DNA from: a virus
Length of the DNA stretch: 23,882 nt
Direction: 5' to 3' (one strand)
IMG/VR virus record: IMGVR_UViG_3300047316_000386
Coordinates: 1-23,882 of that record
The first letter of the stretch is position 1; each line of letters starts with the position of its first letter. Of the stretch, positions 7,967-15,900 are shown in pieces. A program made the translations under genes and the position numbers. The notes below the pieces were generated by a model. That model was not told the origin of the DNA and searched no databases. It saw only the letters and a program-made list of their open reading frames with translations.

Positions 7967-8006
7967 TTTGGACCCCGGGGTTCACTGGGGTCCACCGGGG
8001 TCCAAA
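7967..8006. repeat. Perfect 12-base inverted repeat (stem-loop) after the early operon
   Basis: Arms TTTGGACCCCGG (7967-7978) and CCGGGGTCCAAA (7995-8006) are exact complements around a 16-base loop that itself contains a further GGGGTCCA (7987-7994), allowing an alternative smaller hairpin. It begins six bases after the last early gene. It lacks the T-run of a classical intrinsic terminator on the plus strand (AAAAACC follows), so it may stop transcription by another route or bind protein. Confidence 0.7.
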
Positions 8007-8068
8007 AACCTCGCTGCAGGCCCCGGATTTTCTCGGGTTCGCTATTGTCTCGTAGAGTTTGCGGGGTG

Positions 8069-8083
8069 TTGCAACGTGCGCAA
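8069..8083 (-). repeat. Minus-strand copy of the operator-like repeat
   Basis: Read on the minus strand this is TTGCGC-ACG-TTGCAA, matching the TTGCRC-N3-TTGCGC layout of 259-273, 293-307 and 354-368 with the same nine-base spacing; the second hexamer differs at its last two bases. It is weaker evidence than the three left-hand copies. Confidence 0.4.
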
Positions 8084-8107
8084 AGAGCGCATAAACACTA
8101 CCTTCCT

Positions 8108-8128
8108 GCGCAACCAGTGCGGTTGCGC
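8108..8128. repeat. Perfect inverted repeat GCGCAACC-N5-GGTTGCGC
   Basis: Eight-base perfect arms (8108-8115, 8121-8128) around AGTGC. It is a near-copy of the palindrome at 323-342, sharing CAACC-spacer-GGTTG and the flanking GC. The arms include TTGCGC on both strands, linking it to the hexamers of the early control region. Confidence 0.6.
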
Positions 8129-8197
8129 GCATCAATTTCGAGTTCTCGTGGGGTCTAAAATGTTGACAATGGTGACGGGGGTCGTGGGGTCCAAACG

Positions 8198-8371
8198 TTA
8201 GAGGTAGCCCGTCAGCCAGAGCACCAGCAGGATCACCAGCAGGATGCCGATCACGCTGGTGCCGCCGTAATACCCCCCGGGGTAGCTCGACTGCCACCCG
8301 CCGTGATAGCCGAGCCCGCCGAACAGCAGCAGCACGACGAGCAGGATGACGATGATGGTTACGATGTTCAT
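8198..8371 (-). CDS. Small membrane protein, DUF3309-like
   Basis: A 57-residue protein made of two hydrophobic helices (about residues 3-22 and 38-56) joined by a Gly/Tyr-rich loop (GGLGYHGGWQ, then YPGGYYGG). This layout is that of the DUF3309 group of tiny membrane proteins found in many alpha- and betaproteobacteria. ATG 8371 is supported by GGAGG five bases upstream; longer frames add non-hydrophobic sequence without a ribosome site. It is the only leftward gene between two rightward operons, so it is transcribed on its own, and may be a gene expressed from the prophage or an acquired host gene. Function is unknown; a holin-like role is possible only by size and topology. Confidence 0.8.
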   Translation of the reverse strand: MNIVTIIVILLVVLLLFGGLGYHGGWQSSYPGGYYGGTSVIGILLVILLVLWLTGYL

Positions 8372-8417
8372 GACAACCTCCAGAAGACAGACCCCATGAC
8401 CGTGATGGATCGCCGAG

Positions 8418-8720
8418 ATGTATGACGCCCTGATCGAGGCCGGGGCAACTGAAGCGAAGGCGAGGAAGGCCGCCGAGGTCATCGCCGACTACGACAGCCG
8501 GCTGGCCGCCATCGACGCCAAGCTGTCGGTCGCCTTATGGGCCGGCGGGCTGCTGTTCGCCCTCCCGCGCCCCCGCTTCCTGACGTGGCTGACACGCTGC
8601 GACCTGTGGCTGGAGGCGCGGTTCCTGCCGAAGCTCGATGTGTCTGAGGCGGCGACGCTGTATCGTGCGGGGCTGAGCATCGATGAGGTGCTGGAGCGCC
8701 AGCAAGGAGAAAGGCCATGA
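8418..8720 (+). CDS. Small protein with DUF1640-like helix and hydrophobic segment
   Basis: A 100-residue protein opening the rightward accessory cassette. Residues 1-36 (DALIEAGATEAKARKAAE, then DSRLAAIDAKL) resemble the start of DUF1640-type coiled-coil membrane proteins. A short hydrophobic stretch (about 37-49, VALWAGGLLFAL) follows, then an amphipathic Trp/Arg-rich part and a C-terminal segment with SEAATLYRAGLSIDEVLE. It may associate with the membrane. The start has no clear ribosome site, and the gene diverges from 8371 over only 46 bases, so the promoter is unclear. The stop overlaps the next ATG (ATGA), which supports this strand over an opposing 88-codon frame. Confidence 0.6.
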   Translation: MYDALIEAGATEAKARKAAEVIADYDSRLAAIDAKLSVALWAGGLLFALPRPRFLTWLTRCDLWLEARFLPKLDVSEAATLYRAGLSIDEVLERQQGERP

Positions 8721-9127
8721 CCCCCGAGCGTGAACTGCTGGGCATCGAATGGGAACTTGAGCGGCGCCTTGGCCCCGAGTGGCGCGTTCAGTTCGGCAGC
8801 GCGCCAGATGCGCTAGATGCGCTGTTTCGTCATGAGCACGCGCTGGGACATATGCCGCGCTGTGGGCGCAAGTGGTTCGCCGATGCTGATTATGAGCGGC
8901 TGGTGAAAGCGGCGCAGCAAAGCCGGCTCGTTATGCAATTCATGCAGACTGTGGAGCATATCTACTCTGGGAAGGACTTTGTTGCCTTCGCGGCGCAGGC
9001 AATTCTCCAAGCAGCCACCGTGATTGAGCAGTACGAGAAGCACGCGCTGGATGTCCTGATGCGGCATCCCCTCCCGCAGGTTCTGGAAAAATCTACAGAG
9101 CGTGTGACTGCGCGGGAGGCGAAGTGA
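8717..9127 (+). CDS. Protein of unknown function (accessory cassette)
   Basis: A 136-residue, mostly helical protein without a recognised domain. The N-terminal part (TPERELLGIEWELERRLGPE) and the long helical C-terminal half suggest an all-alpha fold. AAGGAG with good spacing supports ATG 8717, which overlaps the upstream stop. Its stop shares a base with the next ATG (TGATG). Context places it in a chain of five coupled genes. Confidence 0.65.
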   Translation: MTPERELLGIEWELERRLGPEWRVQFGSAPDALDALFRHEHALGHMPRCGRKWFADADYERLVKAAQQSRLVMQFMQTVEHIYSGKDFVAFAAQAILQAATVIEQYEKHALDVLMRHPLPQVLEKSTERVTAREAK

Positions 9128-9450
9128 TGGCGAACCATGAGCCTATGCTCGGTTGGCATTTTTGTGCTAGCGCTCTTAGAGACGGTCGGCCCATTCCACC
9201 CGACGGGGAGACGCTGATCTACGACGGGCCGCTTGAAATGTGCGTCACCGGCCTGCACGCCAGCGAGCGAATTATCGACGCGCTGCAATACGCGCCCGGA
9301 AATACGATCTGCCGCGTCGAGTGTAGAGGCAAGATCGCCGCCGTGCTTGGCAGTCAGGCGCTGCTGTGGACGGGCATGGGCCGGATCGACGGCAACCTCG
9401 CCCAGATCAGCGGGCAGCTCGCCCACATCGAGCAGACGGTGGCGCGGTGA
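9127..9450 (+). CDS. DUF7666-like phage protein with C-terminal extension
   Basis: A 107-residue protein. Residues 7-68 (LGWHFCASALRDGRP, then DGETLIYDGPLEMC, GLHAS, DALQYAPG and ICRVEC) follow the consensus I associate with the phage DUF7666 domain: an initial W-H-F, a DG-P-x-x-C turn, GLHAS and DALxYAPG. The usual C-terminal part is missing; after residue 70 the chain turns into a helical extension ending in repeated hydrophobic-polar residues (NLAQISGQLAHIEQ) suited to a coiled coil. This may be a truncation and fusion. ATG 9127 has GGGAGG seven bases upstream and is preferred over GTG 9124. Function is unknown. Confidence 0.7.
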   Translation: MANHEPMLGWHFCASALRDGRPIPPDGETLIYDGPLEMCVTGLHASERIIDALQYAPGNTICRVECRGKIAAVLGSQALLWTGMGRIDGNLAQISGQLAHIEQTVAR

Positions 9451-9692
9451 GTGACATCCCCGCCGACTGGCGTGGCCAGCTTGATCTGCGGGCTGAGATT
9501 GCGCGCATCGACCGCGAGCGGGCTGAAACCGCCAAGCTCGCAGAAGAGGCGCGGAAGTTCGTCGCCGAGCACGACAAGCTGATCGCCGAGGGGCGCAAAT
9601 ATGAGCGCGACCGCTGGCTTGCCCCTCTGGTTCTGGCCGCGTCACTGCTGGGCGGCGTCCTCGTGGCCATCGTCAGCCACTTCTGGAGGTGA
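9447..9692 (+). CDS. Coiled-coil protein with C-terminal membrane anchor
   Basis: An 81-residue protein. Residues about 15-52 are charged and heptad-like (AEIARIDRERAETAKLAEEA), consistent with a coiled coil; residues 58-77 (LAPLVLAASLLGGVLVAIVS) form one membrane helix near the C-terminus. The topology is a soluble coil anchored by its tail. GTG 9447 overlaps the upstream stop as GTGA. The previous gene also ends in a coil-like segment, so the two products could pair. A lysis or exclusion role is possible but not shown. Confidence 0.7.
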   Translation: MSDIPADWRGQLDLRAEIARIDRERAETAKLAEEARKFVAEHDKLIAEGRKYERDRWLAPLVLAASLLGGVLVAIVSHFWR

Positions 9693-9699
9693 CACGGTG

Positions 9700-9945
9700 A
9701 TGCACATCCTGATCGGCGGCGCCTTGGCGGCGGTCCTCGGCTATTTCTGGCTCATCGGCCATTGGTATGCCCGCGTGCTGATGTTCCTGGTGGTGGGCGC
9801 GGCGTTCGCATTCACCCTCGGTGTCCTGTTCGCTCCGACAGGCGGCGCCGTCATTGGCGTGATCATCGGCTTGGTGATTGCGTGGTTCGTCGCCGGCATT
9901 CCGATCTATTATTGGCGCAACCGCATCCGGCAGATTTATGGCTGA
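9700..9945 (+). CDS. Small three-helix membrane protein
   Basis: An 81-residue hydrophobic protein with three probable membrane helices at about residues 2-20, 24-45 and 48-70, and a basic tail (WRNRIRQIY) likely cytoplasmic. Size and topology fit a class I holin or a superinfection-exclusion type protein, but no specific family is recognised. A GGAGG at 9685-9689 serves either ATG 9700 or an adjacent in-frame GTG at 9697. It ends three bases before the stop of the oppositely oriented late operon, with no visible terminator between them. Confidence 0.7.
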   Translation: MHILIGGALAAVLGYFWLIGHWYARVLMFLVVGAAFAFTLGVLFAPTGGAVIGVIIGLVIAWFVAGIPIYYWRNRIRQIYG

Positions 9946-9948
9946 TTG

Positions 9949-12156
9949 CTAGGGCGGGGCGTTCGGGTTGATCAGCGGGTTCGGTGGGTGCAACAACTCC
10001 TGCGCGCGAGCTCGCGTTCGCGCCTGCGCCCGGGCGGCCCGGGCTGGTTCAGCGGCACCCTGGAGCGCCTTCACGACTACGCTGCCCCAGCCCGGTGAGA
10101 TGTAGTTTGCCACCCCGTGCGCAGCCCACCCGGGACCGTGGCGCTTCAACATATCCATGACGTTCGGCAACGTATCGCTGCCGGGGGCGCGCGCCAGCTC
10201 CGACGCCGTCGCCACGCGGCGCAGATCATCGCGCACGTTCCACAGCCGTTGCATCTGCTCGTCGGTGATCGATTTGTAGGGGTTCAAATCGGTCGAGGGC
10301 GTCTTCCGCATGTCGACCACGTTTTTCATGAAACGCTGGAAGTCACTAAAGCGGACGGGCGTCGTGGTCTGGCTCAGCATGCCGCGCGTCTTATCTTGCA
10401 ACACCTGCATCGCCTCAATCTTCTGCGCGTGCGATCGGTAGGTGTTGACCATGTCCGCGTAGCCGGGCGCCATTTTCTCGATCTCGCCGTCGAGAACGTC
10501 CGAGATGGTGCGCAGCTGGTGCCCCTCGTAGTGCAGGTTGGGGTCTTCCGCCGCCATCCGTTTGTCGGTGAGCCGGTCGATGCTGCGGCGCAGCCCCCAC
10601 GCCTCCTGCGGGTGCATCTCTTTCGGGGTGCCATCGGGGTTGGTCAGCCGGTCGCGTAGATCGCCTAACACCTTCTGCAGCTGCGGGTTTTGACGGTTCT
10701 CGGGAATGGCGAGCGTTTTGTCGATCTGCTCGAGGAGCGGGCGCATGGAGACATCGCCCCGCACGTTGTCCTCGCCGAACACACGCGGCTTGGCTTCCTC
10801 GATAGCGGTCTTTTGCGCCTGCTCCTCGTTATGAACGCTGACCTCGTCGCCGGTCGTGTCCTTGAGGTGCCCACGCCGCAGCTCGTCGTTGCGCTGCGCC
10901 GTCGCCTTGATGTCCTGCGACACCGCCGTGTCCTCGCCCCCGGCAGATTTCAGCTCGCGCGCCAGCTCGGCCGTGAGCTCCTGCTCGGCAGCGCTGACGG
11001 TGACGCCCGAGATGTAGGCGTTGCGATCGGGCACGCCGATCTCGCTGTTCTCCATCAGCTTCCGGCCCTCGGCGGAAGCGCGATACGCTGCCGTCTCCTC
11101 GGGCGTGAACGTCGCCAGCTGCGGCGGCGTGACCATTGCCCCCGCCGGCTGTGGTTGGCCCGGCGCGCCGCCTGGCGCTGGCGCAGGGGCCCCCGGCGGC
11201 GGCTTACCCGCCGCAGCCGCCTCACGCTCGGCCAGCGGCACGGAGCTCAGGGGGCGGCTGAACCCTGTCGGCCTGGCGCCGAACGCCTGCGCCGCAGCGG
11301 AAACCTCCGGGGTGACCCCGAACGTGCCGGTGACGGGGTTGAGGGTCGCAGCTTCCGCGATCGGCTCCGTCGCGCCGTAGAGTGGCGTGCGCAGCATGTT
11401 CGGCATCGCCATCCGGATTTCGCCGGTCTTCGTGTCGCGGGCCAGCGGCAGCACGTCGCCATATTCTGTGTCTGGCGCCGGGGCCAGCCAATTGTGGAGC
11501 GAGCCCGCCGCGCGATAGCTCTCGCCGATCGCCTGCCCGGCCGCGACGTCGGGAGTGTCTGGGCCGATCGGGCGGCCGTAGTCGTCGAAGCGCGGTGTAG
11601 GACCCGGCGGCGGGGTCGCCGCCGCTGCCGGCGCGAGCCCCTCCATGCGGCGCAGCAGATCATCGCCAGACGGCCCTTCGCCCTGAGCGGGTGCCGGTGT
11701 CGCTCCCGCCGCTGCACCGCCCCCAGTGCCCGCCGCAGGGGCAAGACGGTCCATCCGCTTCTGGAGGTCGTCGGCGCTGGGTCCGGTATCGGCCACGGCG
11801 GGCTTCCCGCTCAGTTCGAAATGCATCGGGTCGCGCGTGTCGCCCGACCATGTGCCACCCCAGGTCAACCCGTGCGCGGCGGCGAGATCATTGACATTCG
11901 CCGGCAGGTCGCTGGTGGTCTTGGCGCCGCGCGCGTTGCTGGCCGGGTTGATGTCGATCGCATGCCCGAAGGAATGCTGTGACGGCGTGTCGGTGCCGGC
12001 GATGTTGCGCGGGTTGTAGCCGCCGCTGCTCTTCGCATCGATCTTGTATCCGGCACCCTCGAGGTCGGCGAGGAAGCCGCCGAACGCGTCCGCAGCATCC
12101 TTCGCGACGGTGAACTTGACGCCCGACGGCGAGGTGATCTGCGTGAGGTCCGGCAT
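9949..12156 (-). CDS. Virion ejection protein with N-terminal M15 peptidase domain
   Basis: A 735-residue protein, last gene of the late operon. Residues about 1-118 are a peptidase M15 (VanY/D-Ala-D-Ala carboxypeptidase-like) domain: SxGGYNxR at 43-50, S59-x-H61-SFGHAID68 (zinc ligands H61 and D68) and DPMH112-FE (third zinc ligand H112). The remainder has Pro/Ala/Gly-rich linkers (about 119-200 and 315-345), then a long helical region with many charged residues and a basic Ala/Arg-rich tail (ARAQARTRARAQ). This is the layout of a large internal virion protein that carries a peptidoglycan-cutting domain, used to open the cell wall during DNA entry. In position it corresponds to P22 gp16. A free endolysin role cannot be excluded. 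It starts one base after the upstream stop. Confidence 0.85.
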   Translation of the reverse strand: MPDLTQITSPSGVKFTVAKDAADAFGGFLADLEGAGYKIDAKSSGGYNPRNIAGTDTPSQHSFGHAIDINPASNARGAKTTSDLPANVNDLAAAHGLTWGGTWSGDTRDPMHFELSGKPAVADTGPSADDLQKRMDRLAPAAGTGGGAAAGATPAPAQGEGPSGDDLLRRMEGLAPAAAATPPPGPTPRFDDYGRPIGPDTPDVAAGQAIGESYRAAGSLHNWLAPAPDTEYGDVLPLARDTKTGEIRMAMPNMLRTPLYGATEPIAEAATLNPVTGTFGVTPEVSAAAQAFGARPTGFSRPLSSVPLAEREAAAAGKPPPGAPAPAPGGAPGQPQPAGAMVTPPQLATFTPEETAAYRASAEGRKLMENSEIGVPDRNAYISGVTVSAAEQELTAELARELKSAGGEDTAVSQDIKATAQRNDELRRGHLKDTTGDEVSVHNEEQAQKTAIEEAKPRVFGEDNVRGDVSMRPLLEQIDKTLAIPENRQNPQLQKVLGDLRDRLTNPDGTPKEMHPQEAWGLRRSIDRLTDKRMAAEDPNLHYEGHQLRTISDVLDGEIEKMAPGYADMVNTYRSHAQKIEAMQVLQDKTRGMLSQTTTPVRFSDFQRFMKNVVDMRKTPSTDLNPYKSITDEQMQRLWNVRDDLRRVATASELARAPGSDTLPNVMDMLKRHGPGWAAHGVANYISPGWGSVVVKALQGAAEPARAARAQARTRARAQELLHPPNPLINPNAPP

Positions 12157-12157
12157 G

Positions 12158-13684
12158 TCAGTGCGGCATCGCCGAGAGGGACATCAAGCCCGGCGTCTTC
12201 TCGACAAGGTCGAGCGTCTTGCCGAACCGGATGCGCTCGTCCTTGGTCATCCCGTTCACCATCTTGGTCCGCTGCTCCGGCGTCAGCATGTCGAACATGA
12301 ATGCGCGCGGATCGTGCGTGTTCTGCCAGTCATTCAGGAACCGGGTATAATTCTGCGGATGCCCGTCGGTCTGCTCGAAATCTGACATCGCCATCTGCTT
12401 CATCCGCTCCATGGCGATCAGCGGCTTGACGACGTCCTTGTTAGCGATCGTTGACAGGTGCGAGCTCGGGTTGCCGCTGATCGCCGACGCCAGCGCCTGG
12501 TCGGATCGACCGGACATCCCCTGAGCGTTGACATACTGCTGCATATATTTGGCGACCTTGTCATAGTCGGCCTGCTGGATCGTCTGCGCGTCCCAGCCCA
12601 TGCTCGTGGCTGCCGTCATCAGGAAGCTTTTCGCCCGGTTGAGGGCATCAGCCCCCTGACCGGTGGTGACATCTCCCGACGCAAGGATCGACTGCACCTG
12701 CGCGAGCGGGAAGAGCCGCTGCTGGAACGTCGTCGTGGCCTCCTTGTCCCGCGCGTAGAGGTCGCTGCTCGCCTTCCAGCGCGCCTCGTCATCCGGCCGG
12801 GGGCCGGTCAGCACCGGGGGCGTGGGGGTCGCGGCCGGGGCGCCTGGCGCGGGTGCTGCGGTGGCGCCTGACGTTGCAGCGGGGCCGGGAGGCGGCGCCC
12901 CCACACCGAAGTTGCCGGGCGGCGCCAGCTTGAGCCGCTGCAGCAGCTGCCCTTGTGTGATCGCCTCGGGCTGACCGGTGTCAGGGTTGCGGTAGCCTTG
13001 AACGGGCGCGTTCCACTGCTCGGCCGTCAGTCCGAGCGGGATCGCCGCCCCCGAGGGTGTCCGCAGCCCGCCGCCTTGATCCGGTGGAGCCTGCGTGGTG
13101 CCAACGATCTGACCACCCTGGTTGATCGTGGTGGGCGTGCCGACGCGCGTGTGAAACTGGTCCATGGCGCTGCTGGCCGCCAGGTTCATCTGTTTGACGT
13201 AGGCCGGAACGTCGGCATCGTTCTGCGGCACCGCCGCCATCTCTTCATCGACGCCGGGGGCGCCTGCCGCCTTCAGGCGGCCGAGCACCGCCATGACCTG
13301 GGCCCGCGTCGCGTTCTCCGGCAGTCCGCCGACGGCACCATAGGTCATGCCGAGGAGCGTATGCGCGCGGGCGAGCTGCTCGGTCGTGCGTGCCGACGCG
13401 CCCTCGGTCGCGCCGGCCATGCCCATCGGCATGCGCGGGTCCTTGGCGGCGAGCGCCGTCGCCTTTGAGTAGTCGACCGCGCCAGTGTTGGGGTCGGTCG
13501 ACTGCTGCAACGCCTCACCCCACGCCTGCTGCGATTGCAGCGCGCGCATGCGCATGACGCCCTGCGCCGCCTCGGTGGCGCGCGAGATCGAGCCCAGCAT
13601 GTTGACCTGCGGCGGGTTAGCGAGGCTGTCGATCACGCTGGCGTTGTGCTGCGCACCAATCAGGGCGTTGATGCTGTCGCTCAT
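12158..13684 (-). CDS. Putative internal virion / DNA-ejection protein
   Basis: A 508-residue protein, mainly helical and Ala/Met/Gln-rich, with a Pro/Ala/Gly-rich low-complexity linker at about residues 260-300 separating two helical halves. No catalytic motif is seen. It lies between a gp7-like gene and the M15-bearing ejection protein, which is the position of P22 gp20, so a role as an ejection protein passing from the capsid into the cell envelope is likely. Direct family assignment is not possible by eye. The start overlaps the upstream stop by one base (TAATG); the ribosome site is weak, consistent with translational coupling. Confidence 0.7.
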   Translation of the reverse strand: MSDSINALIGAQHNASVIDSLANPPQVNMLGSISRATEAAQGVMRMRALQSQQAWGEALQQSTDPNTGAVDYSKATALAAKDPRMPMGMAGATEGASARTTEQLARAHTLLGMTYGAVGGLPENATRAQVMAVLGRLKAAGAPGVDEEMAAVPQNDADVPAYVKQMNLAASSAMDQFHTRVGTPTTINQGGQIVGTTQAPPDQGGGLRTPSGAAIPLGLTAEQWNAPVQGYRNPDTGQPEAITQGQLLQRLKLAPPGNFGVGAPPPGPAATSGATAAPAPGAPAATPTPPVLTGPRPDDEARWKASSDLYARDKEATTTFQQRLFPLAQVQSILASGDVTTGQGADALNRAKSFLMTAATSMGWDAQTIQQADYDKVAKYMQQYVNAQGMSGRSDQALASAISGNPSSHLSTIANKDVVKPLIAMERMKQMAMSDFEQTDGHPQNYTRFLNDWQNTHDPRAFMFDMLTPEQRTKMVNGMTKDERIRFGKTLDLVEKTPGLMSLSAMPH

Positions 13685-14472
13685 TACACAGACCCACTGT
13701 TTGGATAAGCGCCCAACGGCGTATCGCCAGCGCCACCGCCCGCCGCCCTTGGCGAGTTCAGGTACTTCTGGAAATTGGTGTAATCGAGGTAGTTCTGCGC
13801 GGCCCCCGTGGCCGCGTTGCCGATGCCTTTGATGCCGGCCGCCGTGTCGATCCCCGCCTGGTTGATCATGCTGGCGGATGTGCCGGCCAGGCTGCTGCCG
13901 ATCGATCCGGTCTGCGCGCCCGCGTTCTCACCCAGCGAAGCAATATTGGATGCGCGGGCGAACTGGTTGGTGACGTTGCCCTGCTGCGCGGTGTTCAAAC
14001 CGAGGACGTCGCTGAACCGCTGCTGCGCGATGTTAAACTGATCCTTGTAGGTGCTGTTGGCCAACCCGGTCGCATATCCCGTGATCGCCTTGAGAGCACC
14101 GCCGCTGCTCACGCCTAAGCCCCGCGCGGCGGCGCTGCCGGTCGCCGCCTTGATGCCCTGGTCGAGCGTGAATTTATAGCCTGGCGTGGCCTCGAGCTCG
14201 GCCTGGGTCATCTGCCCCGGCATCATCGCGTCAGCGCGCGAGACGTAGTCGGGCCCGCCACCCGTGCGATCCATCGCCAGCGCATTCATCGTCGGCAGCG
14301 CGGCCTGGCCGGCCGTGTTGTATGGCTGCAGGTCTGAACGGGTTTGAATGTAGCGTTGCTGCGCCTGATTGGCGGCATCCTTGGCAGCGCTCGCCGCCTT
14401 GGAGCTGCCGAGCATCGAGGTGATGCCGCCGATCAGCGCGCTGCCGCCAATAGCTGCTGCTGTCCAAGGCAT
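13684..14472 (-). CDS. Ejection protein, P22 gp7-like
   Basis: A 262-residue protein. It has a short Gly/Ala-rich hydrophobic N-terminus (AAAIGGSALIGGITSMLG, residues 5-22) followed by an Ala/Gln-rich helix (SKAASAAKDAANQAQQ), then a Gly/Ala/Ser/Asn-rich remainder with repeated helical segments. This is the typical look of phage DNA-transfer proteins such as P22 gp7, which form part of the trans-envelope channel. GGAG eight bases before the ATG supports the start. It heads a block of three successive ejection-type genes reading leftward. Confidence 0.75.
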   Translation of the reverse strand: MPWTAAAIGGSALIGGITSMLGSSKAASAAKDAANQAQQRYIQTRSDLQPYNTAGQAALPTMNALAMDRTGGGPDYVSRADAMMPGQMTQAELEATPGYKFTLDQGIKAATGSAAARGLGVSSGGALKAITGYATGLANSTYKDQFNIAQQRFSDVLGLNTAQQGNVTNQFARASNIASLGENAGAQTGSIGSSLAGTSASMINQAGIDTAAGIKGIGNAATGAAQNYLDYTNFQKYLNSPRAAGGGAGDTPLGAYPNSGSV

Positions 14473-14474
14473 GG

Positions 14475-14816
14475 TTAGTTCTCCAACTCCAGCTCGTGCT
14501 CTTCGTCCACCTCGACGCTGTCGGTGCCATGCAGCGCATGAATACAGGCAAACACGACACCCGGCGTTAGCGTCGTCATAGTGTGTTTCACCCCGGCTCG
14601 GATCAGAATGCCCGCAGGCCCGGTATAATCTCCCAGCATCACATCTCCCGCCACCACCCGCATGCTGCCGTAGGCCAGCAGCGTAACGTGGTCATAACGA
14701 TGACTGTGTTGCGGGATGATGGTGCCGGCGTCTGCCACCACGGCGGTTTTGATGAACAGGTCATCAGTCAGCTTGATCTCGGTCGTGATTGGCTGTTGCG
14801 GCGCGCGTTTCATCAT
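14475..14816 (-). CDS. Cupin-fold protein
   Basis: A 113-residue single-domain cupin. The first cupin motif is H37-x-H39-x3-H43-x6-G50 (HSHRYDHVTLLAYG), with His at the usual Glu position; the second is around residues 65-80 (TGPAGILIRAGVKH) with H78. Four histidines could bind one metal ion. The N-terminus and the acidic tail (VEVDEEHELELEN) lie outside the barrel. It overlaps the upstream 2-oxoglutarate oxygenase gene as ATGA, so both are made together. Substrate is unknown; cupins in phage tail operons are uncommon and may have an enzymatic, sugar-binding or structural role. Confidence 0.8.
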   Translation of the reverse strand: MMKRAPQQPITTEIKLTDDLFIKTAVVADAGTIIPQHSHRYDHVTLLAYGSMRVVAGDVMLGDYTGPAGILIRAGVKHTMTTLTPGVVFACIHALHGTDSVEVDEEHELELEN

Positions 14817-15364
14817 TCCACCCGCATTGATATGATGACAGTGATCCTGTCGGTTTCGCCGTCGTTCACGGTGCTATGCGTCTTGAGGTTGTCGAATAAC
14901 CAAACCTCACCGATTTGCATTACCACCCGTTCCTCTTCGCAGGTGCTATAGCAAAGTGGATTGGTTGCCAGCGGCATATAGGCTTTGGTTTTGAAGAACT
15001 CCGGATGCCAGCGTCCTCGATCATCATGCGGCGCAACCTGCTGTCCCGGCGGCACGCGCGTAATCAATATCCCGCCGAGCTGCACTGCCTCCAGCCGAGC
15101 CATCAGCCCAAAAACCAACGGACGCAGGTGCGGAAGCGCATGCCACGCCGGGTAAAATACCGGCGTGAAGGGTTCATTGAACGAGGATGTGGAGGTCAGC
15201 TCCTGAGGATCGCGAAACCGCACCCAAATGTCGTCAGTGCCTTCGAACGACCCCTTGCCGCCCGTGCGCGCAGTATGTTGGTTCCACAGTTCCGGCTGGC
15301 GATAAAGCTCCAGCACCAACGGCAACACATCGATGCCGTTCGCAACTTGTTGGAAGTTTCGCAT
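14813..15364 (-). CDS. Aspartyl/asparaginyl beta-hydroxylase-like 2OG-Fe(II) oxygenase
   Basis: A 183-residue protein with the metal triad H113-x-D115 (APHDDRG) and H163, and the 2-oxoglutarate-binding R173 inside the segment GEVWLFDNLKTHS...NDGETDR, which is characteristic of Asp/Asn beta-hydroxylase-type dioxygenases. The catalytic set is complete, so it should be an active non-haem iron oxygenase, probably hydroxylating a protein side chain; the substrate is unknown. ATG 15364 is preceded by a G-rich ribosome site (GGGGG); a longer frame reaching 15790 has no support because it overlaps the upstream fibre gene. It sits between tail-fibre and ejection genes, overlapping both neighbours by 1-4 bases. 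Confidence 0.87.
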   Translation of the reverse strand: MRNFQQVANGIDVLPLVLELYRQPELWNQHTARTGGKGSFEGTDDIWVRFRDPQELTSTSSFNEPFTPVFYPAWHALPHLRPLVFGLMARLEAVQLGGILITRVPPGQQVAPHDDRGRWHPEFFKTKAYMPLATNPLCYSTCEEERVVMQIGEVWLFDNLKTHSTVNDGETDRITVIISMRVE

Positions 15365-15900
15365 CACACCCCCGCCACCGCGTTCCACACGCCGCCGCCC
15401 CGGCTGACGTAGAGCGTCGCCCCGACCGCCCCTGACGTGTCGCTGTAGAGGCTTCCGATGGGCCATGAGGCCGTTGGCGGCCCGGCTCCCGCCGTCCACG
15501 TCGGGCCGGTGCTGCCGCCCGTCTGCAGGCTCGTGAACGTCCCCACGGTGCCTGTGAGGGGCCCCGTCAGCGTGCCGCCGCTCAATGGCAGCATCGCCGC
15601 CCGGATGGCCGTGTCCTCGGCCGCACGCGCCGTCGCCTCGGTGCTGTCGGCAACCCGGCGGGCGACGGTCTCGGCGAGGATCGATGCCGCGAGCTGGTCG
15701 TCGCGGGTGGACAGCCCGTTGTCGGCTTCCACGAGCGACTGCGTGATGGCGTCGAGGTCGACGCCGTCCGCGTCGCCCGTGCGCGCCCACAGGGCCCTGA
15801 AGAAGCCGCGCCAGGCGGGGGTCAGCAGCCCGGTTACGTCATCCAGCAGGGGCGCCGACGGGAATGCTGCGCTGAACTGGGTTGCCTTAGGGGCTGCCAC
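15364..15900 (-). CDS. Tail fibre/structural protein with fibre-type repeats
   Basis: A 178-residue protein (GTG start at 15900). The N-terminal part (about 20-45) contains a TPAWRGFFRALW segment often found in phage tail proteins; residues 45-105 are helical with Ala/Thr/Glu; the C-terminus (from LSGGTLTGPLTG through IGSLYSDT and LYVSRGGGVWNAV) shows the LSGGTLTGPL fibre motif and the final GxLYxDTSG...LYVSxGGGVWxxV unit common in phage fibres. It probably forms part of a tail or head fibre. Start choice is limited by the upstream gene stop at 15903-15905; the ribosome site is weak. Its stop overlaps the oxygenase ATG. Confidence 0.75.
   Translation of the reverse strand: MAAPKATQFSAAFPSAPLLDDVTGLLTPAWRGFFRALWARTGDADGVDLDAITQSLVEADNGLSTRDDQLAASILAETVARRVADSTEATARAAEDTAIRAAMLPLSGGTLTGPLTGTVGTFTSLQTGGSTGPTWTAGAGPPTASWPIGSLYSDTSGAVGATLYVSRGGGVWNAVAGV

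Follow-up and report, generated by a model that had tools for sequence, protein, structure and literature searches.

A recurrent site for small membrane proteins that appear unrelated to each other lies beyond the ejection genes of P22-like phages. In the window, by which we mean the whole stretch of DNA analysed here, a linear virus record of 23,882 bases that is probably a fragment, this site is occupied by g5, an 81-residue protein with three predicted membrane helices. SieA of phage P22, whose gene has the same position, blocks DNA entry by rival phages. We consider that g5, perhaps with its neighbour g4, may block DNA entry like SieA, without homology to it, and judge the chance of this to be a little short of even. 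The recurrence of unrelated small membrane proteins at the site suggests a set of phage-entry blockers that had gone unrecognised.

Results

Genomic context of the cassette

The window phage is a P22-like short-tailed phage, whose near-complete relatives measure 40–42 kb each. The rightward early genes in the window encode an SNF2-type helicase, a DUF2800 protein, an Enc34-type single-stranded DNA-binding protein, and DNA polymerase A. The leftward late genes include those of the ejection module. The nearest annotated phage found with a related module is phiAX1 of Acetobacter, whose ejection protein has only 23.5% identity. The last ejection gene (9949..12156, minus strand), at the position of P22 gene 16, encodes a 735-residue protein with an N-terminal M15 peptidase domain (PF13539, 7.8e-14). 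The second ejection-module gene (12158..13684, minus strand) is assigned to the position of P22 gene 20 from its location and from its c16 relatives in six genomes, and matched no named family among the Pfam and PHROG profiles. It is followed by a gene for a gp7-like DNA ejection protein (13684..14472, minus strand; phrog_598, DNA ejection, 6e-18). Further leftward late genes encode a cupin-like protein (recognised by eye), an Asp/Arg hydroxylase, a tail-fiber protein, and a P22 gp10-like stabilisation protein, the match of the last (PF11134, 2e-4) being slightly below the cut-off. The cupin-like protein and the Asp/Arg β-hydroxylase (PF05118, 9e-12) are encoded at 14475–15388, between the tail-fiber and ejection genes, and the hydroxylase cluster is present in 9 of the 10 genomes compared.

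The cassette had been placed in the preliminary description between the replication and tail modules. Its location is rather between the early operon and the DNA-ejection genes, since the neighbour at 9949–12156 is an ejection-module protein.

Some other features of the relatives should be recorded. A 709-residue gene in G007 (L026, 17691–19820) resembles an IS110-type transposase with an intein-like Hint insertion, as judged by eye. Cluster c11 consists of secreted phage proteins of 178–280 residues in five genomes (G003, G010, G011, G012, and G013). PEP-CTERM, a sorting signal unusual among phage proteins, was matched by one protein in a Pfam scan of 76 proteins, and this protein may belong to c11.

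Gene structure of the cassette

All six genes first described for the cassette are confirmed, at about the same coordinates, by the open reading frames, the dicodon coding scores (37–59 for g1–g5) and a ribosome site, and the overlapping stops and starts among the rightward genes are confirmed by the coordinates of g1/g2, g2/g3, and g3/g4. The gene divergent from g1 (8198..8371, minus strand) encodes a two-helix miniprotein of the DUF3309 family (PF11752, 4.4e-7, above the gathering score). A longer frame reaching 8482 was rejected, as its start is too early and a GGAGG site backs the start at 8371.

g1 (8418..8720, plus strand) encodes 100 residues. It had been likened to DUF1640, but g1 has no match to that or any other Pfam family up to an E value of 1; its N-terminal half is related to a coil-plus-anchor protein encoded beyond the ejection genes of G013 (L017), its single relative. 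g2 (8717..9127, plus strand) encodes a 136-residue orphan without a family. g3 (9127..9450, plus strand, with an alternative GTG start at 9124) encodes a truncated DUF7666 protein with a helical tail, as originally proposed; its match to PF24703 (E value 1.3e-6) is above the gathering score and covers only positions 2–69 of the 95 in the profile. g4 (9447..9692, plus strand) encodes an 81-residue coil, modelled at low confidence as a single long helix; its C-terminal segment is hydrophobic. g5 (9700..9945, plus strand) is preceded by a GGAGG ribosome site. An AlphaFold2 model (pLDDT 89) and the charge pattern point to three membrane helices, as had been proposed, and additionally to a basic C-terminal helix.

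None of the six cassette proteins matched the PADLOC models. g4 and g5 weakly resembled some Pfam and NCBIfam families (ATP synthase b, DUF2232, and hydrogenase subunits), but these resemblances were rejected as compositional.

The intergenic stretch upstream of the cassette (7967..8195, no strand assigned) contains four copies of GGGGTCYAAA. All four exact copies in the window are clustered in this 240-bp gap before the cassette. The repeats could be repressor operators or integrase arm-type sites; as to the latter, no integrase was found in the window and no tRNA end in the gap.

Conservation of the cassette genes

The block was described as a unit on account of its overlapping starts and stops. 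As a whole it is not conserved; g1, g2, g3, and the DUF3309 gene are not kept together in relatives, whereas the position of g5 is kept and g4 and g5 recur together. g5 is the sole widely conserved gene of the cassette, with relatives in 15 viral contigs that share the motif WLxGHWFARVL...W...P in the alignment. Relatives of g4, recognised by tblastn and alignment, adjoin g5 in L053 and are beside or near it, at the same site, in L011, L012, and L018. g2 and g3 have no relatives in the fetched loci. Searches with g1, g2, and g4 singly in viral contigs, and with g2, g4, and g5 in phage records, gave no relatives; those of g1 and g4 surfaced only inside loci fetched via g5 or the ejection gene. 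DUF3309-like miniproteins are present in four genomes (G003, G009, G012, and G014), placed elsewhere. g1–g3 and the DUF3309 gene are variable passengers. Tiny predicted secreted and coiled-coil miniproteins also recur beside the membrane gene at the site in L006, L009, L054, L055, and L104.

Position and topology of g5

In the window, and in each of the nine near-complete relatives that carry it, g5 converges on the last ejection gene; it belongs to the early strand. The spacing between the two genes was measured in nine genomes including the window, leaving out G011, where the gene caller had missed g5 although the gene is plainly present (L015, 8001–8300). In G003, G007, G009, G010, and G012 the two genes overlap at their stops by 4 nt, and the stops are spaced by 3 bp in the window and 16 bp in G001. 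G013 and G014 have a small gene between g5 and the ejection gene, with gaps of 759–874 bp. In the window, no terminator-like site is found between g5 and the convergent ejection gene, and there is no promoter match upstream. The predicted topology of g5 is N-out/C-in, on the basis of the basic residues that loop 1 and the tail contain. Fold searches gave nothing significant, a three-helix bundle being uninformative.

Occupants of the slot beyond the ejection genes

The presence of g5 in all nine near-complete genomes might be taken to mean that it is a core or essential gene. This was rejected because g5 had itself been the bait, and for the same reason the search was repeated with the gp7-like ejection protein, a bait unbiased with respect to g5. 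Of the 80 loci thus obtained, 59 have a visible ejection-module end. The next gene after the module is small and on the opposite strand in 26 of them, large and on the opposite strand in one, and on the same strand in 32. g5 proper is found in only a few of the 59 loci, and other families occupy the position, hereafter called the slot.

After removal of near-duplicates, a membrane helix is predicted for 18 of the 24 products encoded in the slot, compared with 111 of 430 small genes (26%; Fisher p = 2.7e-7). Counted by family, with doubtful cases taken as non-membrane, the proportion is 11 of 18 (p = 0.0016). These values come from a home-made gene caller and a hydropathy threshold that signal peptides can pass as well, and the related phages sampled are not independent. 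The g5 family occupies the slot in L053 and L104/L107, and weakly in L093. The two-helix family MRKIFYVAFCSAGMIGF is found in L057, L063, L068, L069, L076, and L084, and the family RFARNLTIISALILAF in L058 and L059. Single cases with three, two, or one helix are found in L055, L056, L052, L083, and L126, and a coil-plus-anchor protein in L060.

Lysis genes in the window and its relatives

The preliminary description had pointed to the lack of a stand-alone endolysin in the window. This weighs little, because the window is a 23.9-kb fragment and the relatives measure 40–42 kb. Endolysins were searched for with PF00959, PF13539, PF05257, PF05838, and PF03330, together with the Pfam scan of 76 proteins from six genomes. 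No stand-alone endolysin of the families tested was found in eight of the nine near-complete genomes with g5 (G001, G003, G007, and G010–G014), phages of 40–42 kb. One weak CHAP match in the scan was dropped, as the genome search did not reproduce it.

In the ninth genome, G009, a membrane protein and a weak lysozyme match adjoin g5, both on the late strand, and an RlpA-like gene is present as well. L060 combines slot genes with a GH108 endolysin and a two-helix gene. The recognisable lysis genes of G009 and L060 are on the late strand and coexist with a slot gene. Late-strand small membrane proteins in the relatives are other candidates for holins. g5 itself departs from a late-strand holin–endolysin arrangement, being on the early strand with no adjoining endolysin in the window.

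tRNA halves and integrases

In G010, the integrase is separated from the coil and g5 genes by a 38-nt sequence identical to the 3′ half of an alphaproteobacterial tRNA-Gly(GCC). This sequence is present in at least 120 genome-contig stretches, nearly all alphaproteobacterial among the matches listed. A tRNA-Val(GAC)-like 3′ half, the isotype of which was assigned by eye, lies between the integrase and g5 in G001. ARAGORN found no whole tRNA. The two 3′ halves are likely attP sites, and if they are, g5 would be located at the end of the prophage after integration. Paired TTGGGCA repeats, seen by eye, flank the tRNA halves (L005, 7660–8010; L014, 7385–7770) and resemble integrase arm-type sites around attP.

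No tyrosine integrase was found in seven of the nine near-complete relatives or in the window fragment, and a search of bacterial genomes for copies integrated at the tRNA-Gly end found none. The tRNA and integrase evidence supports, short of proof, lysogenic expression for the window phage.

Solitary g5-like genes in bacterial genomes

Solitary g5-like genes are found in a few Acetobacterales genomes (G378, G260, G034, and G860), with coordinates 8840–9088 in L266, 6157–6432 in L271, and 361–558 in L272. The copy in G378 is beside metabolic genes, that in G260 is at a contig end, that in G034 is convergent with an integrase-like gene, and that in G860 is near a DUF3309-like gene. In L271, the g5-like gene convergently overlaps a tyrosine integrase-like gene. 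Chromosomal copies were found in 2 of 397, 0 of 385, and 4 of 397 genomes, these samples overlapping and having limited depth per genome; the sample without a copy was a broader alphaproteobacterial one. The patchy occurrence fits either exclusion genes that have been domesticated or a host membrane gene that phages have acquired.

Discussion

A possible block to DNA entry

We propose that the cassette is the local occupant of a "SieA slot". g5, perhaps with g4, would act as a small protein of the inner membrane, and its expression would probably come from the early strand or the prophage. The protein may disturb, in the membrane, the DNA-ejection conduit of incoming short-tailed phages of the same type, and the incoming DNA would then fail to reach the cytoplasm. 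That the protein resides in the membrane in vivo, that lysogens express it, and that it blocks entry are inferences. Several observed features favour this reading. g5 is convergent with the ejection gene, as P22 sieA is with gene 16, and is predicted to have three helices with the C-terminus inside. The slot holds unrelated membrane families, which fits the turnover expected of exclusion genes. In G010 and G001, the g5 cassette is separated from the integrase by a tRNA 3′ half. The early strand carries g5, and the recognisable lysis genes that coexist with slot genes are on the late strand. Superinfection exclusion at the membrane and a non-canonical lysis system had both been named as candidates for the cassette; position, orientation, topology, slot turnover, and the putative attP sites favour the former, and the latter is the weaker. 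Several observations speak against the exclusion reading: no sequence or profile similarity to SieA was detected and the fold searches gave no match, a tyrosine integrase is absent from most of the near-complete relatives and from the window, the solitary Acetobacterales genes could mean a host membrane function, about half of the intact loci have no opposite-strand slot gene, and no promoter was matched upstream.

The solitary genes lead to a different proposal, that g5 is a membrane protein of lysogenic conversion or host physiology, unrelated to exclusion and derived from or shared with Acetobacterales chromosomes. The copies by metabolic genes (G378) and by an integrase-like gene (G034) fit such a role, as does the adjacency of g5 to a putative attP in two relatives. 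However, it leaves the constant adjacency to the ejection gene and the unrelated membrane proteins at the same place unexplained, and the chromosomal copies are rare in the overlapping, limited-depth samples; we regard it as unlikely. A non-canonical lysis system, in which g5 would be a class I-like holin, g4 its partner or antiholin, and the M15 ejection domain or an unrecognised enzyme the agent that cuts the wall, would account for the predicted holin-like three-helix topology and for the eight of nine near-complete g5 genomes without a stand-alone endolysin of the families tested. On the other hand, g5 belongs to the early strand, where it faces the late operon and often runs into its end, and no terminator-like site separates the two; G009 and L060 possess late-strand or GH108 lysis candidates in addition to the slot genes, and the late-strand small membrane proteins of the relatives provide other holin candidates. 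Peptidoglycan-cutting domains of ejection proteins, moreover, are usually thought to act at entry. Lysis is therefore a distinctly unlikely function.

The close convergence of g5 with the ejection gene could also have a meaning within the phage itself: the slot gene might regulate, or protect against, the ejection proteins of its own phage, either through an antisense overlap of the 3′ ends or through shielding of the membrane in lytic growth. In seven of the nine genomes measured, the convergent stops overlap or nearly abut; this and the lack of a terminator-like site between the stops in the window are consistent with the idea, as is the finding that deletion of sieA ensures robust tailspike synthesis after induction (PMC10883804). 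Antisense action, however, would not call for a conserved membrane protein in which W, R, and P residues are invariant, and the gaps of 759–874 bp in G013 and G014 speak against the idea. We consider self-regulation or self-protection very unlikely.

More widely, the slot may be an exclusion site general to P22-like short-tailed phages. The undescribed and unrelated families in it (about 47–120 residues; g5, MRKIFYVAFCSAGMIGF, RFARNLTIISALILAF, and others) would be independent inventions of the SieA type, and some bacteria would keep stand-alone copies for defence. We offer this wider proposal tentatively, as possible but doubtful. If true, it would turn one example, SieA, into a class of mechanism in phages of Alphaproteobacteria and probably of others. 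It would also give a simple genomic rule for finding candidates, namely to look past the last ejection gene for a small membrane gene on the opposite strand, and would open to experiment how proteins so different could all obstruct the ejection conduit.

Comparison with known systems

g5 resembles class I holins in its small size, three helices, predicted N-out/C-in topology, and basic tail. It differs from them in being on the early strand without a neighbouring endolysin in the window, and in coexisting with recognisable lysis genes in G009. Among phage membrane proteins and lipoproteins that stop DNA entry, one account (PMC10883804) describes HK97 gp15, TP-J34 Ltp, and Tuc2009 Sie, and reports that escape from the HK97 and TP-J34 proteins maps to tape-measure or tail genes. 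These proteins act on long-tailed phages and are likened to g5 by description only.

The closest comparison is with SieA of P22. g5 has no sequence or profile similarity to it (hhalign probability 0.4% against P22 SieA), lacks the SieA motif FxRYPxEAxxFNK, and is half its length (81 versus 162–164 residues). It also differs in belonging to a multi-gene cassette with a coil and secreted miniproteins, and in coming from phages of Alphaproteobacteria, whereas SieA belongs to phages of enterobacteria, from which alone sieA has been reported (PMC10883804). We therefore do not file g5 as a SieA; the claim is that it may work like one. The initial statement that no system of this composition has been described holds for the protein families, but not for the position, which is that of P22 sieA. 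Both genes are on the opposite strand directly beyond the last ejection gene, at a distance of 3 bp for g5 and 22 bp beyond gene 16 for sieA, and both proteins have three helices with the C-terminus inside, by prediction. sieA is located between genes 16 and 9 and is known in three types that are only about 25% identical (PMC10883804), and g5 and its counterparts are similar in this respect, being sequence-diverse proteins that occupy one conserved slot.
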